A stretch of 51,305 nucleotides of DNA, taken from the IMG/VR virus record IMGVR_UViG_3300037882_001299, positions 1-51,305 of that record; one strand, 5' to 3'. Each line of letters starts with the position of its first letter. Within the stretch, counting starts at the first letter, position 1. Below the pieces are notes generated by a model that saw only the letters and a program-made list of their open reading frames with translations, had not been told where the DNA came from and searched no databases. Shown piece after piece: positions 1,130-36,554 of the stretch. Both the position numbers and the translations under genes were made by a program. Origin of the DNA: a virus.

Positions 1130-3700
1130 TTAAGTTAAATAATTTCTGTCTGCTACTTGGGCTACTGGTACGCTACTGTCGCTGCTGGTCAATGTATATC
1201 CTCTAATATAGAACGGTACGTAGCCTATTTTGAAGACGCCAATGTCGATGTCTTGCGGTGTCTCGTAAACAAAGCCGTATGTTGTTCCTGCGTTCGCGTC
1301 TACGTTCACTAGTTCTGTTTCTGTCCCTGCTTCCAGCACTACGATGTCACTACCCGTTTGCAGTCCTGTCAGTGTGAGGGTGATGGTATCGAGGGGGTAC
1401 TGGTAAGCTTGGGTGGTCGTAGTGGAGCTGGTGAGGAGATAGACTGAGGTGATGGCTGTGGCATTAGTAGTTCCCGTTGTAATCTCTAGTCTGAGTTTGA
1501 AGCCGTTTAGTGCGCTTATTCCTGTCAGTCCGTTTAGGGCTGTGGCTAGGGTGGTTGGTGAGTAGTTACTTGTGGTCATTGTAGACCAGCCAGCACCATC
1601 GTTTTTATCTATTGAGTAATCGTAAGTGTAGTTGGTTGCTGTACCTCCAGCCATAATGAGTGCTGAGTTTTGGAAAGCTGTGTGTCCAATGATATAGTCA
1701 GGTGTTTCAAAGATTGCTTGGTGTCCAATCACAGGCATGTAGAGACCTCCAGCCGAGGTGAAGGCTGCGCCGTTACTGAGTGTTACTTGTGAGTTAGTTT
1801 CCGCAGTCGCTTCGTTCATTACAATACCGATACGCCCTGCGGTGGTAGAGGTGTAGTAGTCTATCCAGTGAGTACCATATACCGATGTCTGTGCTGTGAG
1901 AGCCTTAGTGCCACCGAGTCCACGCTGTGTCATGTTGATAACAGCACTTACGTCTGCTGCATCAGCATAGTCTCCGAAGACGTTATCCATAATAAGACCC
2001 TTTGAAGAGTTATCACCAGAGATAATACCTGTTCGTGTGTTTGAACAGTAGACACGTTGTAAGCGTGTATTTACCGCAGCACTAGCAGCTACGAGTGTGA
2101 GGATAATTCCTGAAGCGTTGGCACTACCGAGCGAAAGTGGTGAAGCATACGTTCCGATATTTCGGATGTCTGTATTTGCACACCCCGCTACACCGATTGA
2201 GAATAACCCTGTGTATGGATGGTTGTTTGTTACTGGGAGAGTCAATCCGTCAATAACAGTATTAAGGCAGTTAGAAGTAAGTAGGAAAGCTGTTACAGGG
2301 TTTCCTGTTCCTGTGGTACTCGATACGTTCATTATGTACACCGTGTCGTTTACCGTTACATTAGTACAAGTGATTAAAGTAAAAGAGCCGTCAATGATTT
2401 TAGGTGTATCGAAAGTTGTGTTGGCTACACGAGTGGCTGTGATAGCAACAGGCAATGTATGACCTCTTAGTGCAGCATATCTAGTGACTAATCTAGTAAA
2501 TGTAAAGCCATCACAGTCAGTCATAATAACCTGAGTTGAGTTGTTTGCAGCAGTAGCTACTCGCTGGAATCTACAATCAGTGAAAGTACCTCCAGCGAGA
2601 CAGAGAGTCATCGTAAGAGGGGCTACGACAAGCGCAGTAGTAGGTTTGTTACCTACACCCATGTTTGTAAACGTCATGGCAGTAGCGACTTCTGAGAGGA
2701 GAATACCGTCAACGAAACCTGCGTTAGATACATCGACTGAATACGCTTGAGAGCACGAGAGATACCAAGCCATGTTTGCTTTGTCGATATTGATTACACC
2801 TCCCCCAGTGGTAGTGAAGTCGTAACGTGTAGCAATCGTAGCGTTAGGGATTACGTTCGCAGTACGAGCTGCTGTGGTACAGTTCTCTAAGAATACGTTA
2901 CCGATTACTACTTTAAGCCCAGTCACAGGAGTGTATCCGTTGGTAGCTGCACCTGAGTTACCAATACGCACCAAACCCGCGTTGTCTATCCATACACACT
3001 TTCCGCGAGCTGCTTCTGTTCCAGTCGTGGTTACAATTCCAGCGTTAGGGTAAAACTCGTAGTCTCCACCTCCTACAGTCTGTTCAATAAAGACACCAGC
3101 GGCATAGCGAAGTAGCCCGTTATTTGGAATCTGCATGGTCTGGTTACTTGAACCGTTAGTAGTTCCAATTTCATACCATGCACCAGTAATATTTACTTCA
3201 CCAAGTCTGTTGGCAGTGATGGTAGAAGCTTCGTCACCAACCACTTCAATCCACCCGATACGTCCTGCGTCTGAGGCGGTAGCACCGATACCAGTTAAAG
3301 CTCCAGCCGCGTATGTACCAGACTTCTGTTTGACACGAATAAAGCCAGTAGCTGGCATAGCTGCACCAGTGGCAGTACTTGCAGCAGTGAGAGCAGAGTG
3401 TACACCGATTAGTTTACCTGTCGCGCCGTTATTAGTTATTGCGGTATTCCATGCTGGCACGTTTCCCGTCCCTGCCGTGTAAGGAATCATCCAGACGGCA
3501 CTACCGTCGATGTTTACTTTTCCACCCGTGGCCGCAGTTACGGTAATAGGCCCCAATGTCGAACTCGTTGTTTGGTTAAGACCTACGCGACTATCTTGGT
3601 CTATGGTCAGAATAAAACCAGCAGTGTTATATGTGTCACCGCCAGCTTTTGTCGTAAGCGCGTCTATATTTGTATCGGCGGATAGGGTGTAAGTTGCCAT
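1130..3700 (-). CDS. Large beta-rich tail/fibre protein (856 aa)
   Basis: Begins MATYTLSADTNIDALTTKAGG and is rich in Thr, Ala, Gly, Val and Asn throughout, with short hydrophobic strands separated by turns. This pattern is typical of beta-helical or beta-sandwich phage tail spikes and fibres; I recognise no specific family. It sits in the fibre block just before the 500-residue tail protein (10-base gap). The -10-like TATAAT lies 2 bases before the ATG, and a second TATAAT lies 11 bases upstream, so it may have its own promoter and almost no leader. Host recognition or tail structure is inferred from context. Confidence 0.7.
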   Translation of the reverse strand: MATYTLSADTNIDALTTKAGGDTYNTAGFILTIDQDSRVGLNQTTSSTLGPITVTAATGGKVNIDGSAVWMIPYTAGTGNVPAWNTAITNNGATGKLIGVHSALTAASTATGAAMPATGFIRVKQKSGTYAAGALTGIGATASDAGRIGWIEVVGDEASTITANRLGEVNITGAWYEIGTTNGSSNQTMQIPNNGLLRYAAGVFIEQTVGGGDYEFYPNAGIVTTTGTEAARGKCVWIDNAGLVRIGNSGAATNGYTPVTGLKVVIGNVFLENCTTAARTANVIPNATIATRYDFTTTGGGVINIDKANMAWYLSCSQAYSVDVSNAGFVDGILLSEVATAMTFTNMGVGNKPTTALVVAPLTMTLCLAGGTFTDCRFQRVATAANNSTQVIMTDCDGFTFTRLVTRYAALRGHTLPVAITATRVANTTFDTPKIIDGSFTLITCTNVTVNDTVYIMNVSSTTGTGNPVTAFLLTSNCLNTVIDGLTLPVTNNHPYTGLFSIGVAGCANTDIRNIGTYASPLSLGSANASGIILTLVAASAAVNTRLQRVYCSNTRTGIISGDNSSKGLIMDNVFGDYADAADVSAVINMTQRGLGGTKALTAQTSVYGTHWIDYYTSTTAGRIGIVMNEATAETNSQVTLSNGAAFTSAGGLYMPVIGHQAIFETPDYIIGHTAFQNSALIMAGGTATNYTYDYSIDKNDGAGWSTMTTSNYSPTTLATALNGLTGISALNGFKLRLEITTGTTNATAITSVYLLTSSTTTTQAYQYPLDTITLTLTGLQTGSDIVVLEAGTETELVNVDANAGTTYGFVYETPQDIDIGVFKIGYVPFYIRGYTLTSSDSSVPVAQVADRNYLT

Positions 3701-3717
3701 TTATTATACTAATTATA

Positions 3718-4080
3718 TCACAAATACGTAATAGTGTCCACATTTCCGTCTACATCATAGGTGAAAGTTTTTACATTACTTCCGTCAGAAATTGTGTCGA
3801 TATTGCCATCAATATCATAGGTAAAGGTAAGAACAACAGCCCCGACTGTCTTTGTGTCGATATTCCCATCAACGTCGTAAGTGAAGGTTGCATCCCCGAA
3901 TGGCTTGTCCCATGCCCCCGAAGCCGAGCTAGGTGCCCAGACGAGGTTTCCTCCTACGATTTGTAGGTAGTCTCCTTCGGAATATGTAAGCCCAGCAAGG
4001 GTGGTGAGGAATATCTCCTCAGCATTAGTTAGCTCATCCAGCCCACCAATACCGGGGTTTTGTGGGGCGAAGAATGACAT
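3718..4080 (-). CDS. Short fibre protein with conserved anchor and YD-like repeats (120 aa)
   Basis: The first ~30 residues (QNPGIGGLDELT then an EE pair) match the N-terminus of the 574-residue fibre at 48583-50307, so this looks like a shared virion-attachment anchor. The C-terminal half is three near-identical units of the form FTYDxDGNxDT, visible in DNA as three diverged ~60-base copies at about 3720-3900. Such YD-like units build beta-sheet rods. It may be a short side fibre, or what remains of a longer fibre after loss of its distal domain. It follows the coiled-coil gene with a 1-base gap. Confidence 0.65.
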   Translation of the reverse strand: MSFFAPQNPGIGGLDELTNAEEIFLTTLAGLTYSEGDYLQIVGGNLVWAPSSASGAWDKPFGDATFTYDVDGNIDTKTVGAVVLTFTYDIDGNIDTISDGSNVKTFTYDVDGNVDTITYL

Positions 4081-4081
4081 A

Positions 4082-4768
4082 CTAAATCTTGAATCCTACT
4101 CCTTTTGTTTCGTAGATTTTCTTCCACCTTTGCTCTACTGTGCGTAGGTCAGACTCCTTGGTGTTGAGTTCCGCTGCTTTCTTTGTCAGCCTTTCGTCCT
4201 CTGCACGCAGTAGTGTTTTCTTTTCCTCTAACTGAGCGATAATATCCTTGTTGACTTCGCGGAAATTCTCTTCAGCTTTTGCCTTTGATTCAGTAAGCTT
4301 CTCTATACTGGTATTTAGTTCCTTTACAAGAGTCAGTTTTTCGCGGTAGTCGTTAGTGATATTATCAAGCTCACCAAGGGCTAGCTCTTTCTGGTTCAGA
4401 AGGTCTGTCAGAGAGCTGGCAAGTTTGCTCTTATCGTCAATCTCTCTATCCAAGATAGAAATTTGTCGCTTTAAGGACTCGTACTGTGCGCTTTGTTGCT
4501 CATAGGTTGACAAAAACGCGTCTCGTGTTGAGTTGAACTCTGCCTGCTCTGCTTCTAGTGTAGATTGGTCCTTGCTTACTGCCGCACGCACCTCATCTGA
4601 CCAGTCCGAAACAAGCTTTGCTTGCTTTTCTAGCTCAGATAAGTTTCGGATAACAGCAAGATACTCATCCTTGACAGAAACTAGTTGTTGTTGTACTGCA
4701 CCAATCTCTTTTTCAAGACTATCGACAGTCTGCTCCACGAGCTTTTGTATTTTTTCCTTTATACTCAT
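4082..4768 (-). CDS. Coiled-coil virion-associated protein B (228 aa)
   Basis: Almost the whole protein is predicted coiled coil: heptad-like Leu/Ile spacing and Glu/Lys/Gln-rich stretches from residue 1 to about 210. It ends with a short basic segment (RWKKIYETKG). Its ATG overlaps the stop of the preceding coiled-coil gene by 4 bases (ATGA), so the two are translationally coupled. Both end with a similar helix (compare LRTVEQRWKKIY here with FAILKGRFAKAF in the neighbour), suggesting an old duplication. The position between capsid and fibre genes suggests a structural or assembly role; no enzyme motif is present. Confidence 0.6.
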   Translation of the reverse strand: MSIKEKIQKLVEQTVDSLEKEIGAVQQQLVSVKDEYLAVIRNLSELEKQAKLVSDWSDEVRAAVSKDQSTLEAEQAEFNSTRDAFLSTYEQQSAQYESLKRQISILDREIDDKSKLASSLTDLLNQKELALGELDNITNDYREKLTLVKELNTSIEKLTESKAKAEENFREVNKDIIAQLEEKKTLLRAEDERLTKKAAELNTKESDLRTVEQRWKKIYETKGVGFKI

Positions 4769-5514
4769 ATAAGATTATCAATATTTTGGTCTGGATAAAG
4801 TAGGGCGAATGCTTTAGCGAACCGTCCCTTAAGGATGGCAAAGTTCTTGTCTCGATTATCAAGCTCTAGTTCTTTCTGAGTAAGACCGGCGTAAGCCTCG
4901 GCTATTTTCACTGACTCTGCTTGGGTTGCTTTCTGTAGAGAATACAGTTCACTTCTTAGCGAGTCGATACTGCGCTGTAATTCCATCTTCCTGTCAAGTT
5001 CTGCGTAATAGTCAGTAGCAACTTGAGCTAGGTCATACTGAAGAGAGTCTAGCTTATCGCTATCGTAGGCTAGCCTCTCTGACACTCTATTGTACTCCTC
5101 ACATTGCTCATTGATTTCCTCCCGGAGCTCTTTGAGTTGTGACTGCGCTTCCATTACGTCCTCTTGACTCTTGATTACTGTCCGTGCTAGGGAGTCCTGG
5201 TTGTCACGGTGTAGCTTCTCAACAGCCTCTCTGTTTCTGTCTACATTCTTCTGCGCCTCCTCTATATCGGAAACAAGTATTAGAAGTTCCTGCTCTGCGT
5301 TCTCCTTGGCGTCAAGGAATTGTTCAAGGTCAGCCTTCGCTGCTTTTGCTTGGGATACAGCGATAGCTACCCGTTCGTTTAGGGTAGCTTCGACCTGCTT
5401 CTTTTCTATAAGGAGATTCCCAAGAGTTTCACTCTCCTGTTTTATCTCACCTCTCAAAATGACCAGGTGCGCCTCCATGTTCTGTGCCACCATTTCCATT
5501 CGAGAGTCTGCCAT
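4765..5514 (-). CDS. Coiled-coil virion-associated protein A (249 aa)
   Basis: Long charged coiled coil (residues ~10-215), starting MADSRMEMVAQNMEAHL. It is followed by a C-terminal helix and the tail LLYPDQNIDNLI. No transmembrane segment or catalytic motif is seen. It overlaps the following coiled-coil gene by 4 bases and follows the 145-residue head/tail protein with a 1-base gap. Length and style match coiled-coil proteins often found beside phage fibre genes, where they act as spacers or chaperones; that function is inferred. Confidence 0.6.
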   Translation of the reverse strand: MADSRMEMVAQNMEAHLVILRGEIKQESETLGNLLIEKKQVEATLNERVAIAVSQAKAAKADLEQFLDAKENAEQELLILVSDIEEAQKNVDRNREAVEKLHRDNQDSLARTVIKSQEDVMEAQSQLKELREEINEQCEEYNRVSERLAYDSDKLDSLQYDLAQVATDYYAELDRKMELQRSIDSLRSELYSLQKATQAESVKIAEAYAGLTQKELELDNRDKNFAILKGRFAKAFALLYPDQNIDNLI

Positions 5515-13500: not shown

Positions 13501-13501
13501 G

Positions 13502-13572
13502 TTGCGTAGTTGGGAATCGAACCCAAATCAGAAGCTTATGAGGCTTCCTGCTTGCCATTAGCATACCACGCC
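13502..13572 (-). tRNA. tRNA-Met (CAT)
   Basis: Cloverleaf on the minus strand: acceptor GGCGTGG/CTACGCA with only the first pair (G1.A72) mismatched, a 4-bp D stem, the anticodon arm GAAGC-CTCATAA-GCTTC, and the T arm TTGGG-TTCGATT-CCCAA. Anticodon CAT. A CAT anticodon could also be an Ile2 tRNA read after lysidine modification. No CCA is encoded. Confidence 0.85.
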
Positions 13573-13623
13573 ATTTATCGTTACGAGTCCGTGTCACTAC
13601 CACGCCAGCCTTTTTAATTTGTG

Positions 13624-13644
13624 GGCCAGTGAGGTTAACTGGCC
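13624..13644. other. 7-bp inverted repeat between tRNA genes
   Basis: GGCCAGT/ACTGGCC with a 7-base loop in the ~92-base spacer between tRNA-Met and tRNA-Arg. It may be a processing or stability element of the tRNA precursor. No T-run follows it directly. Confidence 0.4.
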
Positions 13645-13664
13645 GTGTTGGTTCTTAACGATTG

Positions 13665-13737
13665 TAGGAGAGACACGATTCGAACGTGCAACCTCCGGTT
13701 TCGAAGACCGGCGCTCTATCCGTTGAGCTACATTCCA
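13665..13737 (-). tRNA. tRNA-Arg (TCG), acceptor stem damaged
   Basis: D arm GCTC/GAGC, anticodon arm CCGGT-CTTCGAA-ACCGG (anticodon TCG) and T arm with GTTCGAATC are all intact. The 5' acceptor strand TGGAATG pairs poorly with the 3' strand CTCTCCT: positions 1, 5 and 6 are mismatched. The mismatched bases are also the last codons and stop of the adjacent HNH gene, whose TAG overlaps tRNA positions 8-10. The gene may be functional only after editing, or it may be a pseudo-tRNA. Confidence 0.75.
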
Positions 13738-14075
13738 AGTGCTGCCTCTCTTTCTTCATGGTGGTGCTTTCTGTGGCAGTTAGAACAAACCACCACACAC
13801 TTAGCCATCTCCGCCGCCATCCTTTCTTTGGACCAACCGTTCTTCCATGTGTCTGCCACAGCTATGACCTTCTCTCTCCCGTCAACGTGGTGGAAGTCTA
13901 AGGTCGCTGGGTGGTCCTCGCCACAAGCACATACGAGCGTCTGTTTGAAATCATTAAGCCACTTCCTTAAATCTTTCACCCGTCTGTGAATTTGCGCCTT
14001 TCGTCTCTCTTTGTTTTTTTCGTACCACTGTTTGTGGTAATCCCTATGGTACTGTTGTTTCTTTGTTAGTTCCAT
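13728..14075 (-). CDS. HNH endonuclease, probable homing endonuclease in tRNA array (115 aa)
   Basis: A helical, basic N-terminus (KKQQYHRDYHKQWYEKNKERR) is followed by an HNH core: CACGE, LDFHHVDGR, and CVVVCSNCHRKHHH, giving the paired zinc cysteines and the His-His-Asn catalytic residues. Free-standing HNH genes of this size are mobile homing endonucleases common in phages. It sits between tRNA-Gln and tRNA-Arg, starts 2 bases past tRNA-Gln, and its stop codon lies inside tRNA-Arg. This suggests insertion at a tRNA target. Confidence 0.85.
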   Translation of the reverse strand: MELTKKQQYHRDYHKQWYEKNKERRKAQIHRRVKDLRKWLNDFKQTLVCACGEDHPATLDFHHVDGREKVIAVADTWKNGWSKERMAAEMAKCVVVCSNCHRKHHHEEREAALGM

Positions 14076-14076
14076 G

Positions 14077-14150
14077 CTGGGTTAGAAGGGGTCGAACCTC
14101 CAGGTTACGAGTTCAAAGCTCGCCGACTTTACCAATTTGTCTATAACCCA
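14077..14150 (-). tRNA. tRNA-Gln (TTG)
   Basis: Perfect 7-bp acceptor TGGGTTA/TAACCCA, D stem GAC/GTC, anticodon arm GCGAG-CTTTGAA-CTCGT (anticodon TTG), T arm GGAGG-TTCGACC-CCTTC and discriminator G. No encoded CCA. The HNH gene begins 2 bases downstream. Confidence 0.9.
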
Positions 14151-14172
14151 TCTTTGCTTCTCCGCTTTCTTT

Positions 14173-14373
14173 TTAAGGAGCGGTAGGATTACTTTTCTCA
14201 AGTACATCCCCTGCACCCCCATCTTGTTCTGGTTCCTCTGTATCTTCTCCCTCTTTTCTGATTTCGTCATAGATGAATAAATTAATCTTACTCCTCACTT
14301 CCTTATATGGAAGTTTTGACCAGCCTCTAAGCTGGGTCTTCTTTTCAAATTGTGTCATATTAACGATTGCCAT
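14173..14373 (-). CDS. Small hypothetical protein inside tRNA array (66 aa)
   Basis: Reads MAIVNMTQFEKKTQLRGW, then a basic-helical stretch, then an acidic tail (EGEDTEEPEQDGGAGD). Composition and charge pattern look like a real protein. It starts 78 bases past tRNA-Pro and ends 22 bases before tRNA-Gln. The second methionine (ATG at 14358, MTQFEKK) is an equally good start. No Shine-Dalgarno sequence or family recognised. Confidence 0.45.
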   Translation of the reverse strand: MAIVNMTQFEKKTQLRGWSKLPYKEVRSKINLFIYDEIRKEGEDTEEPEQDGGAGDVLEKSNPTAP

Positions 14374-14450
14374 TCATGGCGGAATTTCACCTCGTGAGCT
14401 TGTCAGACCTTACACGATACTTTCAGGGGAAGCTATCCTCCGTTAAGTTG

Positions 14451-14521
14451 TCAAGATACCAGGAGTTGAACCTAGGCCTCCCGAGTCCAAGTCGGGCACG
14501 CTACCGTAACGCTTTATCCTG
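14451..14521 (-). tRNA. tRNA-Pro (TGG)
   Basis: Acceptor CAGGATA/TATCTTG (one G.T), D stem GCGT/GCGT with wobbles, anticodon arm CCCGA-CTTGGAC-TCGGG (anticodon TGG), T arm CTAGG-TTCAACT-CCTGG. Base 8 is A where U is usual. No encoded CCA. Confidence 0.85.
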
Positions 14522-14574
14522 GAAAGTCGAGCCATGCTCACTACCTCTAATAGGGAGCAGTGGACCCGACCTTG

Positions 14575-14647
14575 TGCTGCGAGCAGGACTTGAACCTGCA
14601 AGAGTCCGCTTCTAAAACGGATGCGTTTACCATTTCGCCACCGCAGC
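14575..14647 (-). tRNA. tRNA-Leu (TAG) with short variable loop
   Basis: Acceptor GCTGCGG/TCGCAGC, a leucine-type D arm (GGCGAAATGGTAAACGC), anticodon arm TCCGT-TTTAGAA-GCGGA (anticodon TAG, reading CTA), T arm GCAGG-TTCAAGT-CCTGC and discriminator A. The variable region is only CTCTT, whereas bacterial tRNA-Leu normally has a long variable arm. CTA appears frequent in the genes at 17-21 kb. Confidence 0.8.
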
Positions 14648-14877
14648 ATTAGGGAGTTAGGAGGTTGTCGGGTTCGCAAGTTACGAAATTTACCTACCCG
14701 TTACTTCAGAGCTTTTAGTGCATATCGTAGTCGTAACACTACTTTCGCCAGCCCCTCCCATCTGTATAAACTCCCCCTACCGGCAACCTACTTCCTGAGC
14801 TCAGGCAAGGTACAGGACTTTCGTCCACGGTAGTTTCGCAGAGATTCGGCTACAGTTAAGCGGCCGCGTCTGCTTTG
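14648..14877 (-). other. 230-base noncoding spacer with several hairpins
   Basis: No credible gene. On the minus strand it holds GGAC-GAAA-GTCC (a GNRA-capped hairpin), the palindrome CCTGAGCTCAGG, and GTAGT/ACTAC with a six-base loop. This could be a structured RNA in the tRNA transcript or a degraded tRNA/intron remnant. I could not match it to a known family. Confidence 0.35.
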
Positions 14878-14948
14878 TGCGCCATGTAGGAATCGAACCC
14901 ACATCTCCTCGTTGGAAGCGAGGCGTTTTACCATTAAACTAATAGCGC
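14878..14948 (-). tRNA. tRNA-Gly (TCC)
   Basis: Acceptor GCGCTAT/ATGGCGC (one G.T), D stem GTTT/AAAC, anticodon arm CCTCG-CTTCCAA-CGAGG (anticodon TCC), T arm GTGGG-TTCGATT-CCTAC and discriminator A. Canonical type I cloverleaf without encoded CCA. Confidence 0.9.
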
Positions 14949-14950
14949 AA

Positions 14951-14999
14951 TGGTGAGGGGTCTGGACTTGCACCAGAATGAAAGCTGACTTCCCCTCGC
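14951..14999 (-). ncRNA. Acceptor/T-arm minihelix resembling a tRNA without D and anticodon arms
   Basis: Minus strand GCGAGGGG pairs with CCCCTCAC (one C.A mismatch) and is followed by encoded CA. Just before the 3' acceptor strand is a perfect T arm, TCTGG-TGCAAGT-CCAGA, whose loop differs from the tRNA consensus only at position 55. Only 14 bases join the 5' acceptor strand to the T arm, where D and anticodon arms (~40 bases) would be. It begins at the stop codon of the small-terminase candidate and ends 2 bases from tRNA-Gly. Confidence 0.5.
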
Positions 15000-15565
15000 T
15001 ACCTACCTGAGTTCTTATCAACGTTCTGCTCTCGTGCTTGGAGGGCAAGACTGATAATCTCACTTGGTGGTAGGTTCTTATCAAGCTGACTGATGACGGT
15101 AATAGTCTCAGTAGCTTCCCCTCTCAGAATCTGGCTCTTATCAAAGGAGATACCTGCAATGATGCCGAGGTCCTTGAATGATACAGCGTCTAGCTTCTTG
15201 GTTGAGTTAGCTAGTCGGTTTAGCTTCTTGTCGATAAGATGGAATGTCTTATCCCGAATGCCTGATACAACGTTCTTTATATCAAACTTTTCGTCATTGG
15301 CCTCAGCGAGGGTAACGGGCGTGTTGGATTGGATGGCAAGCTTACGCTGGGTCATCCCTTCCTGTACAAGGTCCACCACCTCTTGGTTGATTCCATACTC
15401 CTCGCAGTTGTTCTTGACCTTATTAAAGATTCCGTTGACTGCGTTTCGAATAGCCCGAGTATCTTTGTAGACCTTATCAAAGCCAAACATAAGCCCAACC
15501 TTTAAGGTGGACTGTGTAGCTAGAGCTTTGAATATCTCTACTTCTTTTTCTTTACCGTACTTCAT
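14999..15565 (-). CDS. Candidate terminase small subunit / DNA-binding protein (188 aa)
   Basis: Helical, basic N-terminus with a helix-turn-helix-like stretch (FGFDKVYKDTRAIRNAVNG, about residues 28-46), a central helical core and a polar C-terminus (REQNVDKNSGR). Its length and location upstream of terL, separated only by tRNAs, fit a small terminase. The assignment rests on synteny and the possible HTH, so another DNA-binding role is possible. A TGGTATAAT box ends 7 bases before the ATG, giving a very short leader, and an AGGAA sits in that gap. Confidence 0.5.
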   Translation of the reverse strand: MKYGKEKEVEIFKALATQSTLKVGLMFGFDKVYKDTRAIRNAVNGIFNKVKNNCEEYGINQEVVDLVQEGMTQRKLAIQSNTPVTLAEANDEKFDIKNVVSGIRDKTFHLIDKKLNRLANSTKKLDAVSFKDLGIIAGISFDKSQILRGEATETITVISQLDKNLPPSEIISLALQAREQNVDKNSGR

Positions 15566-15572
15566 TTCCTAT

Positions 15573-15581
15573 ATTATACCA
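15573..15581 (-). promoter_or_regulatory. Extended -10 (TGGTATAAT) upstream of small-terminase candidate
   Basis: TGGTATAAT on the minus strand, ending 7 bases before the ATG at 15565. The -35 position (TATGCA at a 17-base spacer) is weak, as tolerated by extended -10 promoters. Confidence 0.55.
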
Positions 15582-15604
15582 CAATAAATATGTAATGCAT
15601 AATG

Positions 15605-15676
15605 GGTGTTTGCAGGGAGTTGAACCCTGGCTGTCTCCTTCACGGGGAGAGGTGCTACCGTAACACTTCAGACACC
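15605..15676 (-). tRNA. tRNA-His (GTG)
   Basis: Extra G at -1 opposite C73, the hallmark of tRNA-His, then acceptor GTGTCTG/CAAACAC with one C.A mismatch. D stem GTGT/GCAC; anticodon arm TCTCC-CCGTGAA-GGAGA (anticodon GTG); T arm CAGGG-TTCAACT-CCCTG. Base 33 is C instead of the nearly universal U. Confidence 0.85.
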
Positions 15677-17730: not shown

Positions 17731-17767
17731 AAAACACACATGTGGATAACTTACACATGTGTGTTTT
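17731..17767 (+). terminator. 14-bp terminator hairpin containing a DnaA box
   Basis: Perfect 14-bp stem (AAAACACACATGTG with its complement, 9-base loop), with a T-run ending in TTTTCT. Part of the stem and loop (17741-17749) is TGTGGATAA, the reverse complement of the DnaA box. It ends the small transcript of 17210-17696. Because it begins with A-runs it can also act in the other direction. Confidence 0.75.
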
Positions 17768-17820
17768 CTATTGTGTATACTGTTTATAAGTGAGTAGCTA
17801 ATCGACTCACTAAAATAGCC

Positions 17821-17946
17821 ATGGTAATAAAACCAGTTATAGTGAACGGTAAAATGGTAGTAGAGATGCGGGGCAAGGTGCGAGGCGTATATACTTGCGT
17901 AGTGGACAAGACTAGAGGCAAGGTGCTGGCGCGATTGTGTAGTTAG
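17821..17946 (+). CDS. Tiny basic ORF (41 aa)
   Basis: MVIKPVIVNGKMVVEMRGKV then RGVYTCVVDKTRGKVLARLCS. Strongly beta-like alternation and basic, with the same codon style as the neighbouring module. It lies between the strong terminator and the hairpins upstream of the ubiquitin-like gene. No family known; could be a leader peptide. Confidence 0.4.
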   Translation: MVIKPVIVNGKMVVEMRGKVRGVYTCVVDKTRGKVLARLCS

Positions 17947-17955
17947 TGCATCGGT

Positions 17956-18004
17956 GCATCATCTCATTAGTGGGATGATGCGGCCGGTACGCTAACAAGT
18001 ACCG
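17956..18004 (+). promoter_or_regulatory. Two consecutive hairpins upstream of the ubiquitin-like gene
   Basis: The first is an 11-bp stem (GCATCATCTCA with TGGGATGATGC, loop TTAG, 17956-17981). The second is CGGTAC/GTACCG with an 8-base loop (17985-80 to 18004, first arm 17985-17990). They end 14 bases before the ATG at 18018. No U-run follows, so leader-mRNA structure or operator palindromes are likelier than termination. Confidence 0.5.
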
Positions 18005-18017
18005 ACTATATAGTTAT

Positions 18018-18266
18018 ATGCAAAAAAAAGCAAGTACCCGCTCTAGAGTTAGTAAGACAATGATTGTCACTGTTTCAAAGTTCGGTGATGACCCATTGAA
18101 TGTGACTGTACCAGTTGGTGCATCGGTTGCGGATGTGCTAGAGGCCGCGGGCATCGAGACATCGGGACGTGAGCAAACTTTTGTAGAGGGCGAGGCAGCA
18201 GAAGGGGGCGACATTCTAGAGAATGGTGACATACTTTCTATTGTGACACCAAAACAAGCGGGATAA
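18018..18266 (+). CDS. Ubiquitin-like beta-grasp protein (82 aa)
   Basis: The last 68 residues (from MIVTVSKFGDD, ATG at 18060) form a ThiS/MoaD/ubiquitin-type beta-grasp: strand 1 MIVTVSKF, strand 2 LNVTVPVG, a helix with ASVADVLEAAG, then ENGDILSIVTPKQAG. That last segment closely matches the GD-I-xIVTP block before the C-terminal glycines of ThiS/MoaD. It ends in Ala-Gly, not Gly-Gly, with nothing after the glycine, so no processing is needed. A basic 14-residue extension (MQKKASTRSRVSKT) precedes it if the ATG at 18018 is used. It would be adenylated by the E1-like protein at 20198 and passed to the E2-like protein at 18325; that is inferred from the operon. Confidence 0.8.
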   Translation: MQKKASTRSRVSKTMIVTVSKFGDDPLNVTVPVGASVADVLEAAGIETSGREQTFVEGEAAEGGDILENGDILSIVTPKQAG

Positions 18267-18324
18267 TTTAAAAGCCTAATTTATACAAGGGGCGCGGCAA
18301 TATCGCCCGTCCCTTTTATGTACT

Positions 18325-19383
18325 ATGATAAAACAAAAACAGGGCCTAGCGCCTACGGTTGCACTACCCCCGCAATTTGCGGACAAGTACAATCAATTAG
18401 TGCCATCGCCACAAAAGCTGGCAGAGATGGACCTAGCGGAATCAACGGACCGCCTTCTCAGTATACAATCTGACACTGGCGAATATACACGTAGGCTAGA
18501 AAGTCTTAAGCAAAAAGAACTAGAGGAAAAAGAAAAACAAGCCGCGCTTACGTTGGCACTTGAGACGGTGGACATCGCCCCGCACTTGTCACGGATGAAT
18601 AGAGAAAAAAAGGCACTTAGTAAGATACCACTATTAGAGTCAATTGAACTAGGGCGCGACTCTTTAAAGTTTCGCACTAAGGTACTCTTTACACCTATAC
18701 GAACCGGCGACGGTGAACGCACGAACGTGCGGCGGTGTATCGGGGCATTTGAGGTCCGGATTGACTTTTATGATTGTGACATCTATGTAAAAAACCTAAC
18801 TTTTGACAATAACATGACACGCCCACATTGGTCCGTGTATGAAGGGGGCAAGATATGTCAAGGGGAATGGGAAACGGTTTTAGTGGGACTCAAGAATGAT
18901 AGGGAACTAGCGGCGCTTGTAAATACAATGCTTGTATATCTACAGAGTACCGACGACGCGGCGGCGTTTCTGCCGTCCCATCACTGGCTAGTACATCGCA
19001 ATAATTCTGTACGTGATAGAGGCGGTGATATAGAGTTGCTAAGTGTAGGCGACACGGTGGTGATGGTGGCTAATGATTATGTTGACATCGGGGTGCGGGC
19101 GGTGATATCCGAGATACACGAACAGGGCAATAACTATAGACTCGCGGGTGGTAAAAATGCGCTGGGCGGCACATACGCTATCTCTAGCAGTCCGTGGATT
19201 AAAAAAGAAAGTGTAGCGAAAATAACAAAACTTGATTATAAGCGGGCAGTGATGATGCAATCTCTAGAGTACGTTAAAAGTAAGATAAAGCGGACGGGCC
19301 TAAAGAAACGCGAGGACATTATAAAAGAGCTAGACGCTGCCCCCGACGGGCTAACATCTACGCAAGTTAAGGAATTATTTTGA
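18325..19383 (+). CDS. E2-like ubiquitin-conjugating-enzyme-fold protein with C-terminal SH3-like domain (352 aa)
   Basis: Three regions are visible. Residues ~35-105 are coiled coil. Residues ~105-215 match the E2 (UBC) pattern: alternating strands (FRTKVLF, GAFEVRIDFYDCDIYV, KNLTF), then RPHWSVYEGGKICQGEW with His168 and a putative catalytic Cys178 in the G-x-I-C context, then a long helix (NDRELAALVNTMLVYLQ). Residues ~236-300 are beta-rich and SH3-like (LLSVGDTVVMVANDY). Prokaryotic E2-like proteins of this form accept a Ubl thioester from an E1. The gene ends in TGA at 19381-19383, next to the JAMM gene. A GC-rich hairpin about 18287-18317 precedes the start. Confidence 0.75.
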   Translation: MIKQKQGLAPTVALPPQFADKYNQLVPSPQKLAEMDLAESTDRLLSIQSDTGEYTRRLESLKQKELEEKEKQAALTLALETVDIAPHLSRMNREKKALSKIPLLESIELGRDSLKFRTKVLFTPIRTGDGERTNVRRCIGAFEVRIDFYDCDIYVKNLTFDNNMTRPHWSVYEGGKICQGEWETVLVGLKNDRELAALVNTMLVYLQSTDDAAAFLPSHHWLVHRNNSVRDRGGDIELLSVGDTVVMVANDYVDIGVRAVISEIHEQGNNYRLAGGKNALGGTYAISSSPWIKKESVAKITKLDYKRAVMMQSLEYVKSKIKRTGLKKREDIIKELDAAPDGLTSTQVKELF

Positions 19384-19385
19384 GT

Positions 19386-20201
19386 ATGATAGCAGAACTA
19401 ACACACAATGCATGGCACAAAATGCGGGCCTACGTTGACAATTGTCCGGATGAGATAAGCGGGCTAGGCAAGGTGGAAATCGTAGATGGTAACTTTTTGG
19501 TTACAGATATCGCAATCTTTGAACAGGTAGTAAGCGCGGCACATTCTGATATACCGGCGGCGGCACTTGCAAAGTTTCAAGTTGAGTTGATTAAAAAGGG
19601 TGAGAATCCTAAAGACTGGTTTTGCTGGTGGCATTCTCATGCTGCTATGAAAACTTTTCTCTCAGGTCGTGATACTGCCACCATCGACGAGTCAACCGAC
19701 TTTAAGATGATGCTATCAATTGTCACGAACCACGCGCACGAGTTTACATCACGTTTTGACTTGTATAGTCCGGTCCGTATGAAACAGGACGTACAAGTAC
19801 AAGTGCTAGAGGAAGAGGACGACGACATCATAAACGAGTGCAAGGCGGAAATCGCTAAAAAGGTATCTAAGCCAGCGCCTAGTGCATATTTAGGATACGG
19901 GCGAGGCGGCGATCATTCGCACAATCACGGCAAAACGCACAATTTTGGTTTTGAGAAAAAAGAGGAACACGAAAAGCTAAAGACACTAAGCATGCCCACA
20001 AAAACACGGCTTGACTTTGATGTTATGGTGGACCTAGAGCAATATAATGATGAGGTGGCCGGACTAGTCGAGGAAATCGCCAACGCACACGCGGCGGGCG
20101 ATATGACACTAGTCAAGATGCTACGTGATGAACTAGAAGACAAAAAGATAGACGGATTCTATGCGGGTTATGAGAAAAGTTATCCCAAAAAATTATCATG
20201 A
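19386..20201 (+). CDS. JAMM/MPN (JAB) metallopeptidase, probable Ubl isopeptidase (271 aa)
   Basis: Complete JAMM zinc site, numbered from ATG 19386: Glu23 (DEISGLG), His83 and His85 (WWHSHAAMKTF), Ser93 and Asp96 in the spacing H-x-H-x7-S-x2-D. The MPN core covers about residues 1-130. The C-terminal half contains an acidic stretch (LEEEDDDIINE), a His/Gly-rich loop (GDHSHNHGKTH) and a coiled-coil-like end. Known relatives remove or process ubiquitin-like proteins. A TTG at 19380 inside the E2 stop could also start the gene; ATG leaves a 2-base gap. The stop overlaps the next ATG (ATGA). Confidence 0.85.
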   Translation: MIAELTHNAWHKMRAYVDNCPDEISGLGKVEIVDGNFLVTDIAIFEQVVSAAHSDIPAAALAKFQVELIKKGENPKDWFCWWHSHAAMKTFLSGRDTATIDESTDFKMMLSIVTNHAHEFTSRFDLYSPVRMKQDVQVQVLEEEDDDIINECKAEIAKKVSKPAPSAYLGYGRGGDHSHNHGKTHNFGFEKKEEHEKLKTLSMPTKTRLDFDVMVDLEQYNDEVAGLVEEIANAHAAGDMTLVKMLRDELEDKKIDGFYAGYEKSYPKKLS

Positions 20202-20833
20202 TAGACTTTAAAAGACAAGTCGCCATGTTTGACCCGTCGAAACACGAGGCCGTACACGCGGTGATTGTGGGATGCGGGAATATAGGCAGCCATACGGCGC
20301 TTGCACTAGTTAGGATGGGAGTTAAAAGGTTTACACTAGTGGACTTTGATACCGTCGAGGGCCACAACCTAAGCAGTCAAGCGTACTCATGGCGCGACAA
20401 GGACAAGTATAAAGTGGACTGCCTAGAGCAGCACATACTGGCAATCAGTCCTAATACGCAAGTTAAAAAGGTGTACAAGGCGTACCAAAATGCCGGATTA
20501 TCACTCGCTAATGAAGTTGTAATTAGTGCCGTTGATTCTATGCAAACGCGGCGCGAGATATGCGAGATGCTGCCCCTTGATATGTTTGTTATAGATGGGC
20601 GGATGGGCGGCGGCCAAATTGAGGTGCATGCACAAAAGGTAAGCGAGTGGGGCGAGACTTTAAAAGTTGAGGGCGACGCGGACCCGTGCGGGGCTAGGTA
20701 TATATCATATACTAGTTACATCATCGCGGGGCTTATCGCTAACACCTTAAAGCGCTACCTACAGGGCGAACGCTATGCAAGTCGTACACTTATGCACACT
20801 AATACCTTAGAAATTATTAAAACAATGGTATGA
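20198..20833 (+). CDS. E1/ThiF-like Ubl-activating enzyme (211 aa)
   Basis: Compact ThiF/E1 adenylation domain. It has the nucleotide-binding glycine loop (GCGNIGS, residues 25-31), the acidic motif LVDFDTVEGHNLSSQ with Asp49, Asp51, Glu54 and Asn57, a later basic residue (Lys72), and AVDSMQTRRE with Asp113. The candidate catalytic cysteine is Cys164 in DPCGARYISYTSY. The usual Arg after the Asn (NLNRQ in ThiF) is Ser here. The domain is shorter than host ThiF/MoeB and similar to E1s of PRTRC-like cassettes. Its start overlaps the JAMM stop by 4 bases. Predicted to adenylate the Ala-Gly C-terminus of the 18018 protein. Confidence 0.85.
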   Translation: MIDFKRQVAMFDPSKHEAVHAVIVGCGNIGSHTALALVRMGVKRFTLVDFDTVEGHNLSSQAYSWRDKDKYKVDCLEQHILAISPNTQVKKVYKAYQNAGLSLANEVVISAVDSMQTRREICEMLPLDMFVIDGRMGGGQIEVHAQKVSEWGETLKVEGDADPCGARYISYTSYIIAGLIANTLKRYLQGERYASRTLMHTNTLEIIKTMV

Positions 20834-20834
20834 T

Positions 20835-20948
20835 ATGTATGAACGCGCAAAACTCATAGAGCAGTTAAAACTGCTACTAGATACAAAACCAGACAATAAA
20901 ATTAATCGCTTTGCACGCGGGCTACTGCTCGCACTGCTAGGCATGTAG
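20835..20948 (+). CDS. Tiny ORF closing the Ubl operon (37 aa)
   Basis: MYERAKLIEQLKLLLDTKPD then NKINRFARGLLLALLGM and TAG. An amphipathic Leu-rich helix, a short basic turn and a hydrophobic C-terminus. It starts 1 base after the E1-like stop, so it is probably translated with it. A strong terminator follows about 50 bases later. No family known. Confidence 0.5.
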   Translation: MYERAKLIEQLKLLLDTKPDNKINRFARGLLLALLGM

Positions 20949-20998
20949 TTTACCCTATATCTACCCTGTACCCCCGCAAGGCGCTACAGGCACATTAG

Positions 20999-21024
20999 GC
21001 ACACTTTAAACAGTGTGCTTTTTT
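20999..21024 (+). terminator. Rho-independent terminator of the Ubl operon
   Basis: Perfect 7-bp stem GCACACT/AGTGTGC with six-base loop followed by TTTTTT. Its stem resembles the other terminators of this module (17731 and 21599), all built from CACAC/GTGTG. Confidence 0.85.
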
Positions 21025-34958: not shown

Positions 34959-36554
34959 ATGGAGAAGTTGATTAAACAGAGCACAGAAATTGCAGACAAG
35001 ATTATCCGCGCAGTGGATACTATTACAGACCCCATCAGGCAAACACTAAGTCCTCGTGGGGGTAATGTTATATTTGAATCAGACGGAGGAGAGATAACGG
35101 TAACTAACGATGGTGTGACTATTGCACGAGCCATCAATGTAGAGGACCCGTTCGAGAACGCCATCATTCAGATAATTAAAGAGGCGGCCTTGAAGACCAA
35201 CACTAAGGCAGGTGACGGAACAAGTACTACCATTTTGTTCAACAGTGTCCTTACAAAGGGTGGGCTCAAACTCACACGGGATGGTATGAATCAACGTGAA
35301 GTGGTTGGATGGTACCGGGAGTTTGCCGAAGAGCTCAAGAAGTCCCTAGGGAAAATGAAGCAGACAATCAAGAGTGACGCAGACCTGTTCAACGTCGCAT
35401 GTATCTCAGCGAACAATGACAAAGAGATTGCCGCTGATGTAGTTAAGATTGTACGTACAGCGGGAGAGTTTGGCTTTATATTTGTAGAGCCTAGCGCAAC
35501 AAGCAAGACAGAGATAGTTGAGGATTCAGGATTCATCGTACAAGGTGGGTTGTTTAAACCAGAACTAGGTAACAACATGGGTGTGTCGGCATTCCTTGAT
35601 GTACCTATTCTTGTTACAGACAAACGACTATACTACGCAGAAGAGGCAGAGACCATCCTCAACACCTGTTTAAAGAATGGGTACAAGGAGGTCGTAGTAG
35701 TGGCACAGGATTTCATTGGAGACGCCCTACCATTCTTCATAGCTAACCACAAGAAGGGTGCGGTGCGCGTAATCCTCGTGAAGGACCCACACATTGAGAA
35801 GTCACAGGGTGCAACAGTAGAGGACCTTGCCCACTACCTGGACGGAGAAGTGGTAGCAGAAAAGAACGGGACCATTGTAGACAAGCTTAGTATCTCTGAC
35901 TTCTACATGGCTAAGAAAGTGTACGCAGATGCACAACAGACGGTAATTGTCCGAGAAGATGAAACAAGTAAGAAGAGATTGAATGATAGAATTAAAGGAC
36001 TCAAGGCTGAGTTTGAAAAGTTCGGTGACGAAGGCTCAGAGGCTAAGAACTTTATTCAAAAGCGTTTGGCGTCGCTTACTAACGGAATTGTTACTCTTCG
36101 CATTGGAGCTCGCACTCCTATTGAACTCAAGGAAAAGCATTTTCGATATGAGGATTCCATTAGTGCGGCACGAGCAGCCGTTAAAGACGGATACCTTGTC
36201 GGGGGAGGACTCTCAATCCTCCGCGCGTACCAAGACACAGCAACCAAATGGAAAGACACGCCAGAAGTAAACAAAGTCTTCCGTGAATTAGCAGAGGCCA
36301 GTGTGCGCCAGATTGCAGAGAACTCGGGACTACACGGTAACACTGTGTTGCTGGAGATTCTCAAGAACAAGAATAAGAACTATGGGTTTAACGCACTCAC
36401 ACAAGAGTATGGAGACCTATTGAAAGACGGGGTGATAGACCCATATACAGTGACGGAAATGGCGATTGATAACTCAGTCTCTATTGCTAGCGCGATTCTA
36501 TCGTCAAATTACTACATCGTTAATAAACCAAAAGATGACAAAAGCAGTACCTAA
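34959..36554 (+). CDS. groEL: GroEL-like group I chaperonin subunit (531 aa)
   Basis: ATP-driven folding chamber. Conserved ATP-site motifs: NDGVTIA with Asp51, GDGTST with Asp86, a GGGL loop in KDGYLVGGGLSIL, and the intermediate-domain block YGFNALTQEYGDLLKDGV. Length is near the usual ~540. The C-terminus lacks the Gly-Gly-Met tail and ends KPKDDKSST. Sequence is clearly divergent from host chaperonins. The ATG has no strong Shine-Dalgarno sequence. Together with the GroES gene downstream it probably folds phage proteins such as the capsid or large virion proteins. Confidence 0.9.
   Translation: MEKLIKQSTEIADKIIRAVDTITDPIRQTLSPRGGNVIFESDGGEITVTNDGVTIARAINVEDPFENAIIQIIKEAALKTNTKAGDGTSTTILFNSVLTKGGLKLTRDGMNQREVVGWYREFAEELKKSLGKMKQTIKSDADLFNVACISANNDKEIAADVVKIVRTAGEFGFIFVEPSATSKTEIVEDSGFIVQGGLFKPELGNNMGVSAFLDVPILVTDKRLYYAEEAETILNTCLKNGYKEVVVVAQDFIGDALPFFIANHKKGAVRVILVKDPHIEKSQGATVEDLAHYLDGEVVAEKNGTIVDKLSISDFYMAKKVYADAQQTVIVREDETSKKRLNDRIKGLKAEFEKFGDEGSEAKNFIQKRLASLTNGIVTLRIGARTPIELKEKHFRYEDSISAARAAVKDGYLVGGGLSILRAYQDTATKWKDTPEVNKVFRELAEASVRQIAENSGLHGNTVLLEILKNKNKNYGFNALTQEYGDLLKDGVIDPYTVTEMAIDNSVSIASAILSSNYYIVNKPKDDKSST

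Follow-up and report, generated by a model that had tools for sequence, protein, structure and literature searches.

A predicted ubiquitin-like conjugation and deconjugation cassette in a tailed phage and its recurrence among apparently virulent phages

The window analysed in this study, a linear IMG/VR virus record of 51,305 bases taken at its full length, derives from a tailed phage and carries four consecutive genes for a ubiquitin-like protein (Ubl), an E2-like conjugating enzyme, a JAMM isopeptidase and an E1-type activating enzyme. We consider it probable, at roughly 0.82, that this cassette constitutes a phage-encoded and self-contained pathway of Ubl conjugation and deconjugation. An earlier reading of the DNA letters (the original prediction) had proposed a complete Ubl-E2-JAMM-E1 phage operon, which is upheld here in that the open reading frames (ORFs) lie at the coordinates it gave, the motifs are exact and folds or profiles support all four products; that the cassette recurs as a family among phages is an addition to that prediction. 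The four genes are the following:

18018-18266, plus strand: Ubl, single-domain ubiquitin-like modifier (beta-grasp), 82 residues, C-terminus ..TPKQAG (fold and family hidden Markov model, HMM)
18325-19383, plus strand: E2-like conjugating enzyme, 352 residues, catalytic Cys178 (fold, motif and neighbours)
19380-20201, plus strand: JAMM/MPN+ isopeptidase, 273 residues, E25-H85-H87-S95-D98 (family profile and motif)
20198-20833, plus strand: E1/ThiF-fold activating enzyme, 211 residues, candidate thioester Cys164 (Pfam ThiF and family profile)

The E2 and JAMM genes overlap by 4 nucleotides, as do the JAMM and E1 genes, and the JAMM start is either the TTG at 19380 or the ATG at 19386.

Relatives were collected by scanning viral contigs with an E1 profile, which yielded 210 contigs with relatives, of which 80 were kept; iterated HMMs were then run against all ORFs of those loci. 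The E1 is the only one of the four proteins to exceed the Pfam cut-off (ThiF, 4e-22) and its best-scoring models as a single sequence are of the ThiF type, with the PADLOC E1-E2 and NCBIfam 6A-MBL models matching the same domain. The HMM searches that the original prediction had proposed as a check thus succeeded outright for the E1, while the other three single sequences stay below the cut-off and draw their support from family profiles or structure prediction. The E1 family profile matched UBA5 at 9.3e-22, as well as UBA1/UBA6, ThiF and MoeB. The protein exhibits the features of the E1/ThiF superfamily, namely the glycine loop (GCGNIGS, corresponding to GxGxxGS), the DxD pair (D49xD51) and the adenylation-site Arg, Lys and Asp, together with DGR and DPC164GAR motifs, and residues G25, G27, D49, D51, N57, Q61, K72, D113, R118, R135 and C164 are invariant in 28 E1s. 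In most members Cys164 is found in the context P-C-[TGS]-x-[KR] or a comparable one, and the catalytic cysteines of eukaryotic E1s sit in similar C-T contexts; based on its invariance and on this resemblance Cys164 is the best candidate for the E1 thioester.

The JAMM is weakly recognised as a single sequence (Prok-JAB 0.037, PADLOC JAB 0.0047), while its family profile matched Caldiarchaeum Rpn11 at 2.9e-12 with the E, HSH, S and D positions aligned, yeast and human RPN11 at approximately 5e-11, and also CSN5 and AMSH-LP. The JAMM/MPN+ pattern E...HxHx7Sx2D is present in full (E25-ISG, H85-S-H87-x7-S95-x2-D98), and its five residues are invariant over 27 sequences. Across the loci 85 of 1204 ORFs carry the full pattern as compared to 0.25 expected after shuffling, a count that measures enrichment beside the E1 since the loci were fetched by means of their E1; HxH..S..D is present in 83 of 84 JAMM matches.

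Regarding the Ubl, the AlphaFold2 model (predicted local distance difference test, pLDDT, 89) presents a beta-beta-alpha-beta arrangement that is predicted to form one beta-grasp, and Foldseek assigned it a probability of 1.00 to Mth1743, SAMP1, NEDD8, SUMO and Caldiarchaeum ubiquitin, with Rad60 SLD2 also among the structural matches. Its sequence is weakly similar to ThiS, MoaD and SAMP. HMM relatives of the Ubl adjoin the E2, JAMM and E1 in 25 other viral records, and 25 of the 26 distinct Ubls possess a Gly among their last six residues.

The AlphaFold2 model of the E2 consists of a long N-terminal helix (residues ~29-99), a UBC core (~100-228, pLDDT ~90) and a poorly modelled C-terminal region. 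When this model was structurally aligned, all 50 PDB entries listed were E2 enzymes (Z 7.1-8.3, over residues ~84-228), the best being UBE2S (Z 8.3, root-mean-square deviation 3.4 over 118 residues), this re-alignment being a re-scoring of Foldseek's own list. The catalytic Cys178 lies in the motif RPHWSVYEGGKIC(178)QG; it and Gly180 are invariant across 23 E2 sequences, and an HPH motif is located upstream of the Cys. The model therefore presents the predicted features of a UBC-fold E2 (the fold, a Cys following the beta-meander and an HPN-like motif before it). A full-length E2 profile searched against PDB sequences was dominated by coiled-coil noise. As sequence profiles gave no PDB match, the case for the E2 is founded on the fold with its uniform list of matches, the HPH..G..C motif and the neighbouring genes. 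The UBC fold of the protein starting at 18325, on which the original prediction had staked its claim, was accordingly recovered in the model, and the E2 cysteine, the five JAMM residues, the E1 glycine loop and the candidate E1 cysteine that it had singled out proved exact and invariant across 23-28 relatives.

Among the 80 contigs kept, the complete four-gene set was identified in 26 viral records including the window, of which 24 are distinct (L019, L020 and L021 being copies), on contigs of up to 232 kb. The order Ubl-E2-JAMM-E1 is observed in 23 records and E1-Ubl-E2-JAMM in three (L008, L014 and L025; in L025 the E1 is 3.6 kb from the other three genes). The closest relative, L006, shares 54% identity with the window in the E1, 40% in the JAMM and 26% in the E2. 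Across members the cassette proteins are mostly 15-35% alike while their catalytic residues are invariant, which implies selection on catalysis. The adjacency of the four genes, the invariance of these residues and the enrichment of the JAMM pattern are more than chance, and the folds, catalytic residues, operon and recurrence are established computationally. Recovery of the family depended on profiles: nucleotide searches of the locus in GenBank phages gave no match, nor did tblastn with three E2s in GenBank phages and two in plasmids; single-sequence scans of viral contigs with the E1 or E2 found nothing where the E1 profile succeeded, and a two-sequence E1 profile found no match in genome contigs where a sub-family profile did.

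No fifth gene family or built-in substrate was widely conserved among the neighbours of the cassettes. A constant phage protease partner was not supported (Lon in 0/27 and ClpP in 1/27 records), and neither was GroEL (1/27 records, that of the window phage only). A PHROG 'ATP-dependent protease' gene follows the E1 by approximately 600 bases in L011 (9245-11776), in which Lon_C is unmatched. Helicase, primase and UvsX genes lie near other cassettes, and primase and uracil-DNA glycosylase genes near those of crAss-like phages. A tyrosine integrase was detected in none of 27 records tested, as compared to 14 of 14 control genomes; several of these records are short, such that single absences are weak and it is the total that is telling. 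Carriers of the cassette are thus, judging from their gene content, apparently virulent lineages. The original prediction had called the window phage lytic, for which there is indirect support in that no Phage_integrase or Resolvase domain was matched in the contig; this falls short of proof, as the linear record is possibly incomplete. A terminase match was obtained in 19 of the 27 records. Those of G026, G027 and G023 (the records of L043, L049 and L030) read through at least one stop, G026 through four TGA and one TAG, which may reflect stop-codon reassignment, introns or frameshifts.

A diverged branch extends the family to approximately 55 further crAss-like or Flavobacterium-type phage loci with an E1 and a JAMM, preceded in most of them by diverged genes for an E2-like and a Ubl-like protein. 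In GenBank, phages whose E1 belongs to the cassette family are the crAss-like cr111_1 and cr128_1, Dulem virus 41 and numerous phages of Flavobacterium psychrophilum; directly upstream of their E1 lie genes for a JAMM, for a protein that contains HSH ... C[LI]G and for a Ubl-like protein. MT774387, MT774392, PP511520 and KU599877 resemble the window in their E1 family (with the invariant residues), their JAMM family and a gene order with E2-like (HSH..CxG) and Ubl-like (K-x-SG) genes upstream, whereas their E2 and Ubl are beyond simple sequence search and most of the Ubls extend into a long tail at the C-terminus; the annotations of these records name only ThiF and metalloprotease. Among the diverged E2-like proteins (n = 41), the H, C and G are each kept in approximately 95%. 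In many of the diverged Ubl-like proteins K-x-SG closes the fold, after which L039 and L074 end one residue later and most continue into tails of approximately 70-200 residues, as would be expected of a precursor that the JAMM trims. Aligning the E2 profiles of the two branches using hhalign (E 8e-4) placed HPH on HSH and Cys on Cys, and that of the two Ubl branches gave E 2e-3; these profile comparisons are suggestive of homology in both cases, and the gene order strengthens them. In a quick tree of the E1s, a branch with support 83 separates all phage-type E1s, together with three relatives from metagenome-assembled genomes (MAGs), from the remaining sequences, PRTRC ThiF being among the nearest outside; this separation is tentative because of long branches. 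The cellular relatives of the cassette are located on three MAG contigs (Parcubacteria, Bacteroides and Saccharibacteria) and are possibly phage DNA in bins. That of Parcubacteria, a member of the candidate phyla radiation (L087, MHXH01000017.1), has relatives of the Ubl, the JAMM, the E1 and the E2-like protein, the last with no evident motif for the catalytic Cys; a different contig of the same genome (L157) holds a second copy of the JAMM. In Flavobacterium phage Fpv1 (L005, KU599877.1, 2683-4975) the JAMM is apparently split into an E half (2683-3036) and an HSH..S..D half (4031-4975), separated by a minus-strand ORF (3199-3948), perhaps representing an intron with a homing gene.

Each ingredient of the cassette is already known, and the nearest systems are Bil, whose four activities match those found here, and PRTRC/type 6d, whose architecture is equally simple. 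The cassette possesses the Bil gene set of Ubl, E2, JAMM and E1 in one operon, and resembles Bil further in the named order Ubl (A), E2 (B), JAMM (C) and E1 (D) and in a JAMM that processes the Ubl C-terminus. However, BilA comprises two Ubl domains, and BilD two adenylation domains (one inactive, one active) plus a Cys domain (PMC11354881), whereas the window Ubl is one domain of 82 residues and its E1 a single adenylation domain of 211 residues; BilB has a CEHH motif where the phage E2 has HxH before the Cys, and the window system is carried by phages. With PRTRC/type 6d (Iyer et al. 2006) it shares a single-domain Ubl with a C-terminal Gly and separate JAB, E1 and E2 genes, and each of the 28 phage E1s gives a match to the ThiF model of PRTRC (best 1.5e-20). 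The window E1 nevertheless scores 32.8 bits versus the cut-off of 144.75 for PRTRC ThiF TIGR03736, and in type 6d E2s the classical His is missing and a His is found downstream, in contrast to the upstream HPH of the phage E2s. No match to the PRTRC B or C models was obtained from the phage E2 and Ubl alignments, PRTRC_A was weakly matched by 3 of 27 phage JAMMs, and the phage E2, JAMM and Ubl profiles matched none of the five proteins of a Deinococcus PRTRC locus.

Type II CBASS (Cap2-Cap3, 6A-MBL) also combines E1, E2 and JAB chemistry, although its E1 and E2 are fused and it encodes no Ubl, while in the window the genes are separate, a Ubl is encoded as well and neither a nucleotidyltransferase nor an MBL protein is conserved as a partner. 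Lambdoid phages employ a Ubl (TAPI) and a JAB protein (TAPK) in tail assembly (PMC1779556), and are thus alike in having a phage-encoded Ubl and JAB; these belong to a tail module without E1 or E2 and with the JAB fused to NlpC/P60, whereas the window cassette includes both E1 and E2 and lies in a replication module. Membership of PRTRC, Bil, type II CBASS or the lambda-tail Ubl group was rejected as a tested feature fails in each, and since for both Bil and PRTRC/type 6d that feature is a defining one, the cassette is filed with neither; the likeness to these two drawn by the original prediction stands for function and gene order and falls for membership. No earlier description of phage-encoded E1-E2-Ubl-JAMM sets was found in the open-access literature, subscription papers being mostly outside this search and priority consequently uncertain, while a survey of 224 jumbo-phage genomes does not mention Ubl, ThiF or JAB (PMC7824862).

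Further features in the immediate surroundings of the cassette are:

17735-17772, plus strand: strong inverted repeat or hairpin upstream of the operon, tentative (RNA fold z -4.3)
17752-17781, plus strand: promoter-like hexamer pair overlapping the upstream inverted repeat, tentative (promoter scan)
17821-17946, plus strand: 41-residue ORF, link to the four-gene cassette not demonstrated (ORF call)
20835-20948, plus strand: 37-residue ORF after the E1, link to the cassette not demonstrated (ORF call)
20997-21020, plus strand: terminator-like hairpin and T run, probable end of the transcription unit (scan; RNA fold z -3.5 versus shuffles)

The stretch 17821-20948 outlined by the original prediction hence holds the four cassette genes and, in addition, two tiny flanking ORFs whose relation to the system is not demonstrated; the ORF following the E1 has no significant homology (E 0.32) to a small ORF in L006. 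The promoter scan as a whole did not rise above chance (15 versus 12.5 +/- 3.6). A strong RNA hairpin directly before the Ubl start (17935-18020, plus strand; -35 kcal/mol, z -4.2, below every shuffle) is a possible regulatory leader. With a GC content of 0.465 the cassette differs little from the contig as a whole (0.456), and recent foreign origin is therefore not indicated. Phage genes on the minus strand of the window include those for the terminase, head-tail adaptor and major head protein, and those on the plus strand a primase-helicase, exonuclease, DNA polymerase exonuclease subunit, RNA ligase, polynucleotide kinase, dNMP kinase and GroEL. The cassette opens the rightward block of replication genes and lies away from both leftward blocks (head/terminase, 4-13.5 kb; large genes, 37-51 kb). 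Directly to its left are seven tRNA genes (Met, Arg, Gln, Pro, Leu, Gly and His; 13501-15675, minus strand), and the GroEL gene (34959-36554, plus strand) encodes a full-length phage chaperonin (PHROG E 1.7e-110; Cpn60 4.1e-47).

The order of the reactions, targeting by means of the E2 and the timing are what we infer in the following scheme. Using ATP, the E1 would adenylate the Ubl at its C-terminal glycine and subsequently hold the Ubl as a thioester on Cys164, from where it would be transferred to Cys178 of the UBC-fold E2 and attached to amino groups of the target, probably lysines, with the coiled-coil and C-terminal parts of the E2 itself, rather than a separate E3, selecting the target. 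The JAMM would remove the Ubl from targets again and, in relatives whose Ubl extends past the glycine, would also trim the precursor. Because the operon starts the rightward replication block, expression would be early or middle and the targets would lie in host takeover, counter-defence or phage replication and not in the virion; the presence of the window cassette and others beside replication genes likewise suggests action during takeover or replication, and the tagging of host or phage proteins in these processes is the reading that we favour.

Several points weigh against such a pathway. The E1 is minimal and has no Cys domain like that of BilD or of the E1s of eukaryotes, which makes the thioester on Cys164 a deduction, and the tail of the window Ubl is -AG and not -GG. 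The Foldseek result for the E2 is weak (UBE2S, E 0.095) and a Z of 8.3 is modest in absolute terms; the E2 sequence has no meaningful match among the Pfam, NCBIfam and PADLOC models, and its PDB support is structural only, a trimmed UBC-only profile having matched no PDB sequence. The pathway is predicted here from sequence and models, its substrate is not readable from sequence, and early expression is read from gene position only.

It could be argued that the cassette is instead a sulfur-carrier pathway, in which a ThiS- or MoaD-like Ubl would be thiocarboxylated through the E1 for tRNA thiolation or cofactor synthesis and the JAMM would trim the carrier; the preference of the single-domain E1 for ThiF-type models and the weak likeness of the Ubl to ThiS, MoaD and SAMP would fit. 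However, sulfur carriers need no E2, yet one with a conserved active site accompanies the cassette in 26 records, and no widely conserved adjacent family presents itself as a sulfur donor or acceptor enzyme. The retention of the E2 and JAMM active sites points to reversible protein conjugation, and a pure sulfur carrier is very improbable. A distinctly unlikely reading is that of a Bil-like weapon, which would protect the infected cell by tagging the tail proteins of superinfecting phages: Bil has the matching four activities (PMC11354881) and is described as hindering phage assembly through tail tagging (PMC12135933), but it is a long-lived prophage that would profit most from such protection, whereas the carriers look virulent (integrase 0/27), and the E1 and Ubl architectures are unlike those of Bil.

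Scarcely better placed is the notion that the cassette antagonises host Ubl defence by competing with Bil or CBASS conjugates or by stripping them with the JAMM. Every cassette has a JAMM, and the many JAMM enzymes of Borg elements have been proposed to counter host tagging (PMC12660748), but a JAMM by itself would be enough for this purpose, while the E1, E2 and Ubl keep full active sites, as suits forward conjugation. Less doubtful, if still rather unlikely, is modification of the virion or of the phage itself, whereby the Ubl would be placed on structural or replication proteins to control assembly or the timing of replication. Conservation of the cassette across unrelated phages with different hosts and the use of a Ubl and a JAB protein in lambdoid tail assembly (PMC1779556) speak for it; the window cassette, however, lies among replication genes, away from the head/terminase and large leftward genes, and no structural gene recurs widely next to the cassettes. 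As for the wider proposal that a virus-owned Ubl signalling lineage, separate from Bil, CBASS and PRTRC, is employed offensively, reprogramming host or phage proteins in the course of infection, across unrelated and apparently virulent phages (the 51-kb contig, 232-kb genomes and crAss-like gut phages), we hold the odds to be even.

Ubl conjugation in bacteria is a known anti-phage weapon, and with full E1-E2-Ubl-JAMM sets in phages that appear to be virulent the customary roles are reversed. Their presence suggests that protein tagging is also a phage tool, one that has been overlooked because three of the four genes escape standard annotation. The occurrence of a diverged gene set in Flavobacterium psychrophilum phages of culture collections renders this testable, and the minimal, single-domain forms of the E1, E2 and Ubl are useful for understanding the early history of ubiquitin.

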